A DNA stretch of 42,852 bases from the IMG/VR virus record IMGVR_UViG_3300023284_000760, positions 1-42,852 of that record. The stretch is one strand, 5' to 3'. The DNA is from a virus. Below the pieces are notes generated by a model. It saw only the letters and a program-made list of their open reading frames with translations, was not told where the DNA came from and searched no databases. A program made the translations under genes and the position numbers. Below, in pieces: positions 28,241-36,124 of this stretch (its first letter is position 1; each line of letters starts with the position of its first letter).

Positions 28241-28431
28241 TTTTCTTCCTGACCGGGCTGGGCAGGACTAAAAACGCCGCAGGACTCGCTTGGATCGTGA
28301 GGTAGATGCCCCCTTACTTCGGAAGATAGGCCCTGTTCGGCAAGCAATAAAACCGCACCAAGCGCAGCGGGACTATTTTTTTCAATAGCAAGTATCGCCT
28401 CTAGTGCCTCTTTCATAGATTCGTAAGTCAT
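28237..28431 (-). CDS. Small early protein, 64 aa, with a shared C-terminal tail
   Basis: MTYESMKEALEAILAIEKNS then a helical AALGAVLLLAEQG. The end, GHLPHDPSESCGVFSPAQPG, resembles the tail of the 28727-28981 protein (EHLPHDPSEPCEVCTP). ATGA overlaps with both neighbours. The changes C to G and C to F remove a possible CxxC pair found in the relative. Confidence 0.65.
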   Translation of the reverse strand: MTYESMKEALEAILAIEKNSPAALGAVLLLAEQGLSSEVRGHLPHDPSESCGVFSPAQPGQEEK

Positions 28432-28730
28432 TTTTCCTCCAATTGATCGCGTCCGAGCTGGTCAGGCGGCGCAGGCAGCGGCATCCAATGCGTAACAAAT
28501 TCATCGTCTATTTCTGCATACTCTGGTTCGCTCGAATCAGGGTAGCTCCCGTTATTAAACATTGCCCACCACTTAACGGTTTTGCCTCTACTGCCCGTCC
28601 GAATTGCTGGCACTACACAGGTGCCTAATTCATCATCTTTCCAGTCAATGTAAATTAAGATGGGTTCACACTGACGAGCAAATTGTCGGTGTTTCGGTAG
28701 TTGCTTCTTAACTGAAATCCACTTATTCAT
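28428..28730 (-). CDS. DUF551-like early protein, 100 aa
   Basis: MNKWISVKKQLPKHRQF at the start and FVTHWMPLPAPPDQL at the end are the two hallmarks of the DUF551 family (W.SV...LP...........VTHWMPLP.PP), common in phage early regions, function unknown. The middle is WWAMFNNGSYPDSSEPEYAE. ATGA overlaps with neighbours. Confidence 0.85.
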   Translation of the reverse strand: MNKWISVKKQLPKHRQFARQCEPILIYIDWKDDELGTCVVPAIRTGSRGKTVKWWAMFNNGSYPDSSEPEYAEIDDEFVTHWMPLPAPPDQLGRDQLEEK

Positions 28731-29769: not shown

Positions 29770-29788
29770 ATTTACGAAATTTCGTTAA
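29770..29788 (-). promoter_or_regulatory. 19-bp motif, copy B, after the methyltransferase stop region
   Basis: Minus strand TTAACGAAATTTCGTAAAT, a 12-bp perfect palindrome core (ACGAAATTTCGT). It begins at the TAA stop of the methyltransferase gene and lies just downstream of the 29363-29758 gene start in coordinates. One base differs from copies A and C. Confidence 0.5.
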
Positions 29789-30648
29789 TCTGAACGAGCG
29801 AGTCCTGTTTGGGCACGATCTATTGCCCTAAATATGATTTCTGCGACTTGAGGGACGATTGCGTTTCCAAGCCCTCTAAGTCTGTCCACCCTTCTGGGTA
29901 TCCCATTAGCCACTCGACCCACTGGGGGTTCAGCGGCCCATTCATAGGTTCCGTTGCCGTGATCGCGCCTCGCAGTCCCAGGCCCGCCTTCGGATTGTCT
30001 TTTCTTGGAAATGTCCGACCCGTCCCTATTGCATCCACTGCCGCCGACGTCGGCCACAGCCTCACATATCGTTTCAGTGTCATTTGACAATGTTTGCCAG
30101 TTTTGGCGTTGTAATTCCTCGCGTTCTTTTTCGGTTCGTGACTGAGCTCCGGCATTGGTCCTGATTGTGCCGAGTCCGGTGTGGGAAATAATCCAGACTC
30201 GTTCTCGTCTGTGCGGGGCATCAACGGCACAAGCCGGAATAACAAACGCTTCCCAGGTGTAGCCAAGTCCCTCCAGGTCAGCCAGCACTTCGTCGAGGCC
30301 CATATTGATATGTCCAGCAACGTTCTCGCCAAGCACCCAACGCGGCCTGAGTTCTCGTATAAGCCGAGCAAATTCCGGCCAGAGATGGCAGTCATCTGCC
30401 TCGCCTCGTCGCTTCCCGGCAACACTGAATGGCTGGCAGGGATACCCTCCTGTAATGATGTCCACATGTCCCACTGTTTCACCTGTCAGTTCTCGTACAT
30501 CGTCATAAATCGGTACATCCGGCCAATGCTTGCGTAATACCTTCTGGCAGTAAGGGTCAATCTCGCAGAAACCAACGGTTTCCCATCCAACCCACCTGGC
30601 AGCAAGTGCAAATCCTCCAATTCCGCTGAATAAATCAAGATGTTTCAA
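29785..30648 (-). CDS. DNA (cytosine-5) methyltransferase, 287 aa (TTG start)
   Basis: A start at TTG 30648, which overlaps the upstream stop as TTGA, puts motif I at the very N terminus (LKHLDLFSGIGGF). Motif IV has the catalytic cysteine (GGYPCQPFSVAGKRRG, ~70), followed by ENVAG (motif VI, ~113) and APHRRERVWI (motif VIII, ~150). The last motif is RLRGLGNAIVPQ (motif X, ~263). The target-recognition region between motifs VIII and IX is short and polar and has many Arg, Glu and Gly, perhaps because a second reading frame overlaps it (29820-30482). It probably protects phage DNA from host restriction. Confidence 0.93.
   Translation of the reverse strand: MKHLDLFSGIGGFALAARWVGWETVGFCEIDPYCQKVLRKHWPDVPIYDDVRELTGETVGHVDIITGGYPCQPFSVAGKRRGEADDCHLWPEFARLIRELRPRWVLGENVAGHINMGLDEVLADLEGLGYTWEAFVIPACAVDAPHRRERVWIISHTGLGTIRTNAGAQSRTEKEREELQRQNWQTLSNDTETICEAVADVGGSGCNRDGSDISKKRQSEGGPGTARRDHGNGTYEWAAEPPVGRVANGIPRRVDRLRGLGNAIVPQVAEIIFRAIDRAQTGLARSD
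29820..30482 (-). CDS. Alternate-frame ORF inside the methyltransferase, 220 aa
   Basis: Open for 220 codons from ATG 30482, in a different frame of the same strand. It has protein-like, ordered motifs: SGRNLLGLYENSGRVGCLARTLLDIS, STKCWLTWRDLATPGKRLLFRLVPLMPRT, LFPTPDSAQ, and near the end LNPQWVEWLMGYPEGWTDLE. I recall this motif order as a recurrent protein family overlapping or following phage cytosine methyltransferase genes. Its product may form or assist a recognition module. Expression and start codon are unproven. Confidence 0.6.
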   Translation of the reverse strand: MKQWDMWTSLQEGIPASHSVLPGSDEARQMTAISGRNLLGLYENSGRVGCLARTLLDISIWASTKCWLTWRDLATPGKRLLFRLVPLMPRTDENESGLFPTPDSAQSGPMPELSHEPKKNARNYNAKTGKHCQMTLKRYVRLWPTSAAVDAIGTGRTFPRKDNPKAGLGLRGAITATEPMNGPLNPQWVEWLMGYPEGWTDLEGLETQSSLKSQKSYLGQ

Positions 30649-30809
30649 TCCTCGTAATGCTCTCGCGGAAGGCAGTATTCCCAGACATCTCGACCAAGAA
30701 GCTGTGAACACCAGCCGCCTTTCCAGCGCATTACATAGCGCAACCAAACGGTTTCCCCACCGACGATGGTGACTGGATACCACGCAAACCATTTTTCACA
30801 TCCGCTCAT
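30645..30809 (-). CDS. Small early protein, 54 aa
   Basis: ATG 30809 lies in motif copy C. MSGCEKWFAWYPVTIVGGET, then VWLRYVMRWKGGWCSQLLG, then VWEYCLPREHYED. It is rich in Trp, Tyr and Cys; such peptides (AWYPV....G.WVWL..V...W) are common in phage early regions. It overlaps the methyltransferase start by 4 nt. Function unknown. Confidence 0.65.
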   Translation of the reverse strand: MSGCEKWFAWYPVTIVGGETVWLRYVMRWKGGWCSQLLGRDVWEYCLPREHYED

Positions 30810-35260: not shown

Positions 35261-35450
35261 TTTTATTATGTATAAACCGATTCAATGTTGGCATTTCTGG
35301 CGCAGCCGCTTTCTAGTTCAACAGATATTGGGGTGGGAACTAACAAAAAATAACGATGGGGTAAATTCCATTCTTAGTCCACCTGAGCAAGTTTGTGAGC
35401 ATTGCTGTAAGCGACACAAATACCGATGCATACGTGAGGTACAACTATGA
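35253..35450 (+). CDS. Small Cys/His-rich protein, 65 aa
   Basis: MSDFIMYKPIQCWHFWRSRF, then SPPEQVCEHCCKRHKYRCIR. CEHCC with later Cys residues could bind zinc. ATGA overlap with the exonuclease start and 8-nt overlap with the lipoprotein gene. No family recognised. Confidence 0.6.
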   Translation: MSDFIMYKPIQCWHFWRSRFLVQQILGWELTKNNDGVNSILSPPEQVCEHCCKRHKYRCIREVQL

Positions 35451-36124
35451 GCTTTTTGTTCCTAGATCTGGAGACGATCCCCGACCAACGTCCGGGCGCT
35501 TACGACAAGATTCTTGAGAATGTGACTGCACCTGGAAACTATAAAAAACAAGAATCAATTGATAGATGGATTGCCCAACACGGTGAGGCCGAAGCACAAG
35601 AGCAATATCATAAAACTGGCCTTAACGGTATTGCCGGTGAAATCTGTTCCATCGCATGGGCAATTGATGATGGCGAGATTATTGGCTATACAATCCCGCC
35701 GAGTTTGCCTGAGGCCGGTCTTCTGGATGGTTTTTTTAAAGATGTACAGTACAAGGTGAAAAAGGCGGGCACTGGTGCACATCCGAGCCTGACTTGGATT
35801 GGCCATAATGTTATTGACTTTGATCTACGCTTTTTGAAACAACGCTGTATCGTCAACCAAGTACAGCCGCCATTCATCATACCGGCCGACGCCAGGCACG
35901 GCAGCCGTGACGTATTCGATACCATGAAAGCGTGGGCGGGTTGGAAGGGTTATGTCTCGCAACAGGCGTTGTGTGAAGCGCTAGGCATAGAGGGCAAGGA
36001 CGACATGACTGGCGCCGATGTATGGCCCGCTTATCAGGCCGGCAAATTCGAGGAAATTCTGGCATATAACAAAAACGATGTCCGAATCGTGCGTGAACTA
36101 TACCGGAGAATGTCTTGGGCATGA
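35447..36124 (+). CDS. 3'-5' exonuclease, DEDDy type, PolB-exo2-like, 225 aa
   Basis: Exo I motif FLDLET (residues 4-9), exo II HNVIDFDLRFL (~118-128), and exo III YNKNDVRIV (~206-214) with the Tyr-x3-Asp spacing of DEDDy enzymes. Together with PGNYKK..SI..W and GISGEICSIA-like residues (GIAGEICSIAWA) this is the predicted 3'-5' exonuclease related to the PolB proofreading domain (PF10108-type). It works in DNA repair or recombination. There is no polymerase domain and no separate polymerase in the genome. Confidence 0.9.
   Translation: MSFLFLDLETIPDQRPGAYDKILENVTAPGNYKKQESIDRWIAQHGEAEAQEQYHKTGLNGIAGEICSIAWAIDDGEIIGYTIPPSLPEAGLLDGFFKDVQYKVKKAGTGAHPSLTWIGHNVIDFDLRFLKQRCIVNQVQPPFIIPADARHGSRDVFDTMKAWAGWKGYVSQQALCEALGIEGKDDMTGADVWPAYQAGKFEEILAYNKNDVRIVRELYRRMSWA

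Follow-up and report, generated by a model that had tools for sequence, protein, structure and literature searches.

To our knowledge, M.EcoHK31I is the one studied precedent for a methyltransferase encoded in two frames, and its small chain is reportedly read from an alternative frame within the large gene. The genes of M.AquI, also a two-chain enzyme, are said to share only a short overlap. The multispecific C5 enzymes of Bacillus subtilis phages (SPbeta, phi3T) carry, between motifs VIII and IX, tandem recognition domains similar in size to the modules described below; these phage enzymes are cited in PMC4081073. In PMC3404938, the large chain of M.EcoHK31I (YGGCCR; Lee, Kam and Shaw 1995) is given motifs I–VIII and X and the small chain motif IX, with the predicted target-recognition domain (TRD) placed in the large subunit; the same paper describes M.AquI (CYCGRG) as an alpha/beta C5 methyltransferase whose motifs are split into I–VIII and IX–X.

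The locus analyzed here lies in a window of 42,852 nucleotides (the whole stretch of DNA under analysis, IMG/VR record IMGVR_UViG_3300023284_000760) that comes from a phage and contains portal, head-closure and endolysin genes. The gene of a C5-cytosine methyltransferase (alpha) overlaps a second gene (beta) over 663 bases (Table 1), and the two overlapping genes, on one mRNA, very probably encode a single heterodimeric C5 methyltransferase to which beta gives motif IX. A previous examination of the letters without database searches (the sequence-only reading) had reported a protein-like second frame of 220 codons, which we can confirm: it is open from GTG 30482 on the minus strand, in the +1 frame relative to alpha. 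It had also described the methyltransferase frame as intact, with motifs I, IV, VI, VIII and X. All of these are present, and motif IX, about which nothing had been remarked, is missing from the chain. The alpha ORF is open already from ATG 30792 (29785..30792, minus strand), and its conserved part begins at TTG 30648, the start suggested by comparison with homologues. An ORF of 54 aa (30645..30809, minus strand), for which a Pfam search gave no match, is located immediately upstream, and its TGA stop shares the sequence TTGA with the presumed TTG start of alpha. Elsewhere in the window we found a DUF551 protein (PF04448, E = 1.1e-8) at 28428..28730 on the minus strand and, on the opposite strand, a predicted 3'-5' exonuclease (PF10108, E = 1.9e-11) at 35447..36124, which sits in a short block of plus-strand genes at about 32.6–37.7 kb.

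Table 1. Features of the two-frame methyltransferase locus (positions in the window).
Feature	Position	Strand	Remarks
alpha, C5-cytosine DNA methyltransferase large subunit	29785..30648	-	287 aa from TTG 30648
alpha motif I (DLFSGIGGF)	30610..30636	-	
alpha motif IV, catalytic PC (GGYPCQPFS)	30424..30450	-	
alpha motif VI (ENV)	30310..30330	-	
alpha motif VIII-type block (HRRERVW)	30193..30213	-	
alpha linker, motifs VIII to X	29941..30192	-	open, barely conserved in the alpha frame, mostly disordered (predicted)
alpha motif X (RGLGNAIVPQVAEII)	29833..29877	-	AlphaFold2 helix 266–286, high confidence
beta, nested +1-frame gene, putative small-domain / motif IX subunit	29820..30482	-	220 aa from GTG 30482
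beta conserved hairpin block (WASTKCWLTWRDLATPGKRLLFRLVPLMPRT)	30210..30302	-	conserved in alignment A3
beta module 1 (LFPTPDSAQ...KRYVR)	30060..30191	-	putative target-recognition module; similar module in L002/L003
beta module 2 (LWPTSAAVD...NGP)	29934..30059	-	putative target-recognition module; aligned with conserved PTP columns 144–146 of A3
beta motif IX-like block (LNPQWVEWLMGYPEGWT)	29883..29933	-	near-invariant in alignments A1/A3

Alpha matches phrog_363 (E = 2.6e-91) and PF00145 (E = 1.9e-42), the latter at residues 2–181 only, and its alignment to canonical C5 enzymes covers just residues 1–162. A motif IX scoring scan found no motif IX in this chain, which does not combine motif IX and a small domain with the catalytic motifs, as a monomeric enzyme does. 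AlphaFold2 predicted a confident catalytic core, which matches M.HhaI and M.HaeIII along about 160 residues, and mostly disorder in residues 161–248, where M.HhaI has its small domain (pLDDT was below 50 at 161–167, 193–222, 227–230 and 243–248). Substitution along this linker is relaxed in the alpha frame (the alignment being unreliable in the module region), and the linker contained a single alpha-frame stop over 164 loci, against 354.5 expected; the frame was open in 163 of the 164 (34 expected). Apparently, the alpha frame is kept open through the modules only to reach motif X. The sequence-only reading had taken this stretch for the target-recognition region of the enzyme, short and polar in keeping with a double-coding constraint. 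The constraint is real, but the stretch looks like disordered filler, and the variable recognition modules seem to be located in the second frame and not in that of the methyltransferase.

Beta matches phrog_1008 (E = 1.2e-27, residues 6–203), and the identity of related betas to it reaches about 53% at most. Pfam, NCBIfam and PDB sequence searches gave no match. Modeled alone by AlphaFold2 it gave a poor structure (pLDDT 63.6, pTM 0.29), whose best-predicted segment includes the hairpin block (strands 67–74 and 80–87), and a structure search with this model recovered no PDB fold. The end of the second frame, described earlier as conserved-looking, is indeed a near-invariant C-terminal block in alignments A1 and A3 (LNPxWVEWLMGxPxGWT), and it lines up with the canonical motif IX, e.g., RLTPRECARLMGF of E. 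coli Dcm. When betas were scored for motif IX by a simple scan, the LNPxW block came out as the top window in 83 of 88; the match per sequence is modest (mean z 2.1) and is not seen by Pfam. Most likely, the end of the second frame in the window (LNPQWVEWLMGYPEGWTDLE) is the very motif IX that the methyltransferase chain lacks; the block stops 5 bases ahead of the alpha-frame motif X. From this motif and its position, we infer that beta is the small-domain subunit.

A long open frame inside another gene could be a shadow of the codon bias of alpha, and the conservation of alpha does yield some similarity in the other frames. We permuted synonymous codons, leaving the protein and the codon usage of alpha unchanged, and, for the window alone, the +1 frame came out free of stops in 0.24% of the shuffles (mean 3.9 stops). 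Over the core overlap of 70 homologous loci (<90% identical) we counted four stops in the beta frame against 237 expected, and 68 of the 70 were stop-free against 1.1 expected from the synonymous shuffles; the four stops, confined to two loci, are probably misalignments at the edges. Similarity in the beta frame was 2.1 BLOSUM units per column, compared to 0.26 in the shuffles and 0.9 in the +2 frame. When each substitution was classified by its effect in both frames, the dN/dS of beta given alpha was 0.67 (95% 0.59–0.76) and 0.39 (0.30–0.48) in the overlap, while the same measure upstream in alpha gave 0.95 and 0.89, values not clearly different from 1. Four-fold sites of alpha differed by 0.33 in the overlap and by 0.61 upstream (at 45–55% identity). 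These stop counts and dN/dS values, together with modules that are conserved when read as beta but not when read as alpha, led us to reject a chance frame, to which we attach a practically negligible probability: beta is a real gene under purifying selection. The constraint passes from one chain to the other along the overlap. At motifs IV–VI, changes affecting alpha only are rarer than those affecting beta only (0.12 vs. 0.29), at motifs IX/X they are commoner (0.19 vs. 0.10), and the motif IX block of beta has the lowest rate of beta-changing substitution in the whole overlap; rates per region are affected by the unreliable alignment within the module region. The double coding proposed by the sequence-only reading is therefore upheld by the near absence of stops in relatives and by purifying selection in the second frame, and also by the existence of a beta family (phrog_1008), by +1 nesting nearly everywhere we examined and by the ribosome-binding site that most relatives have inside alpha.

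In those relatives a run such as GATGTAAAGGAGTTAGCAAATG precedes the start of beta, inside the alpha gene. A Shine-Dalgarno (SD) match of at least 4 nt was found before the beta start at 58 of 70 loci, whereas 27.8 would be expected from the codon usage of alpha and the maximum in 200 simulations was 38. GTG 30482 occupies a position homologous to ATG starts that have AAGGAG sites in relatives; in the window the SD ahead of it is weak, and ATG 30467, with a 4-base SD match, is an alternative start. Such sites argue against programmed ribosomal frameshifting, by which beta would be made only at the C-terminal end of a fusion with alpha, acting as a single-chain enzyme. This fusion would also omit the N-terminal part of beta, yet residues P22, S24, A27, M30, T31, S34 and G35 are conserved there. 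(To some extent this N-terminal part may be a shadow that alpha motif IV casts; we saw short spurious beta matches in two canonical enzymes.) A single chain is made structurally plausible by two loci, L212 and L215, in which one frame holds motifs I–VIII, a C-terminal half that resembles beta and includes motif IX, and motif X, but in each case one indel in an AquI-like locus would suffice as an explanation. For the same reason we discarded these fusions, as ambiguous, as proof of one enzyme. All considered, we regard frameshifting as quite improbable and prefer a separately initiated beta chain.

In the window the motifs are divided so that alpha has I–VIII and X, without IX, and beta has IX. 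The division is different in a set of rearranged loci (L149, L152/L201, L210, L214 and L216), where alpha stops just past motif VIII and the beta ORF runs through motif IX into motif X. Since motif X is part of the catalytic fold, neither chain of these loci can form an enzyme by itself, and this genetic support suggests that both would be needed for activity in the family. The contrasting view accepts beta as a true overprinted protein but gives it a role of its own, e.g., anti-restriction or regulatory, the methyltransferase gene merely housing it. Overprinted genes often encode accessory factors, and beta has neither a fold match nor a Pfam family. However, the motif IX that alpha lacks is present in beta, and at least five loci have motif X in beta instead of alpha. 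Furthermore, beta accompanies alphas devoid of motif IX and not complete enzymes: among the loci examined in a census of 17 genomes, chosen for having a beta, the methyltransferases whose PF00145 match stops at 145–229 have a nested beta, and none was found with the full-length PF00145 methyltransferases. An independent role is for these reasons very improbable, and we retain the heterodimer. In four other loci (L143, L148, L259 and L274) alpha and beta shift frame together, one indel disrupting both chains, as expected from a single indel, either natural or a sequencing error.

The most variable part of beta is a tandem array of one to five modules of about 35 residues (27–51 between starts), beginning with (W/F)PTPxAxD and located between the conserved N-terminal half and motif IX. 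Similar modules, falling into 20 families, formed 83 distinct pairs among betas whose N-terminal parts were less than 60% identical, and 53 of the 83 pairs were at different positions of the array; as module pairs share ancestry, these counts are not independent trials. Identity within the pairs was 82% when they were read as beta and 43% when they were read as alpha. By beta codon position the identities were 83, 90 and 49%. When pairs were selected instead for similarity in the alpha frame, only four were obtained, against the 83 selected on the beta frame. Given their position, their variability and the precedent of the multispecific phage enzymes, the modules may be target-recognition units, and beta probably supplies the part that chooses the DNA target. 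We lean slightly towards seeing the nested frame as a recombining specificity cassette, in which modules are gained, lost and shuffled, and for which alpha provides a non-conserved linker that needs only to stay open.

A tblastn search with beta retrieved 80 annotated phage records, and a pattern scan matched 335 viral contigs and 279 places in bacterial genomes; eight plasmids matched as well. In all of the first viral loci (80/80) the beta homologue was in the +1 frame of alpha, and the same nesting recurred in three annotated phage records and, with few exceptions, in the loci added later from genomes and viral contigs, which comprise phages, prophages and plasmids of many phyla. Within the Pseudomonadota, 25 of 398 genomes matched, nearly all the loci examined being nested identically. 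More distant betas follow the same plan, as in E. coli phage K1G and mycobacteriophage Nitzel. A few annotated relatives, phrog_1008 among them, have this nesting and are listed with no function assigned or as a second methyltransferase: an ‘internal gene’ had already been entered for some Paenibacillus phages, gp56 of Paenibacillus phage Shelly being the nested +1 gene, annotated as ‘g55 internal gene’, and ORF30 of Escherichia phage K1G is annotated as ‘Mte8-like’. In the other records examined alpha alone is annotated. For example, in Nitzel (NC_051690, locus L168) beta is open and conserved at 1015–1674 and only the methyltransferase frame is listed. The arrangement is thus conserved in hundreds of phages and prophages and mostly missed by annotation, and a search of the papers available found none describing this phage two-frame family. 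The chromosome of a Roseovarius MAG (OX638333.1) has five methyltransferase loci with identical scores (L097, L099, L101, L102 and L103), suggesting repeats of one prophage-like element. In a Bacteroides finegoldii plasmid (NZ_OY725930.1, L085, at about 1100–2400) beta is open and the alpha ORF starts only at around residue 65; the methyltransferase is missing from the gene table, and alpha is possibly broken or has an unusual start.

Putting these data together, alpha would contribute the catalytic large domain with motifs I–VIII and X, and beta, initiated within alpha at its own site in the +1 frame, would contribute motif IX and presumably the small domain that recognizes DNA. For ribosomes in the alpha frame, the DNA that encodes the beta modules and motif IX would specify just an unstructured linker leading up to motif X; for those in the beta frame, alpha motifs IV–VIII would specify the conserved N-terminal part. 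As in M.EcoHK31I, the two chains may then assemble, and the resulting enzyme would methylate the phage DNA at sites determined mostly by the modules of beta, probably evading host restriction. As to its history, a canonical gene (I–VIII, recognition region, IX, X) may have been broken by a change of frame before the recognition region. The nested form would have required a second change before motif X, after which each chain reads the stretch of the other as extra.

This two-frame, two-chain C5 methyltransferase is widespread and poorly annotated. Annotation keeps one frame, and many phage and prophage ‘cytosine methyltransferases’ are consequently listed as single proteins that, if our reading is true, would be inactive when cloned alone; once the second frame is recognized, the missing motif IX of these enzymes is explained. 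Experimenters should express both chains together. With its hundreds of members, the family is also a naturally replicated case of a long same-strand gene overlap, allowing constraint to be measured in each frame. If the modules recognize DNA, the family would in addition supply DNA specificities that can be combined and would directly test how specificity evolves within overlapping genes, and if the cassette view is true, this is a large-scale natural system in which information changes in one frame over a spacer indifferent to sequence in the other.

Compared to M.AquI, the likeness is that two chains complete one C5 enzyme, and the rearranged loci (L149, L152, L210, L214 and L216) share its motif split. 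However, motif X of the window is in the large chain and not in the small one, and the overlap of 663 bases differs from the short one reported for AquI. The recognition domains of the SPbeta and phi3T enzymes are placed like the beta modules, but those enzymes are single chains read in one frame. The window shares with M.EcoHK31I the split of the motifs given in PMC3404938, and the small gene is nested in the large one, as it reportedly is in M.EcoHK31I. There are differences: PMC3404938 places the predicted TRD in the large chain, whereas here recognition would reside in beta; the system of the window is borne by phages and prophages, with no restriction enzyme identified nearby; and small chains of the window type have one to five shuffled modules. 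By motif split and nesting, i.e., by anatomy and not by the sequence of beta, the locus can be classed as a two-chain enzyme of the M.EcoHK31I type.
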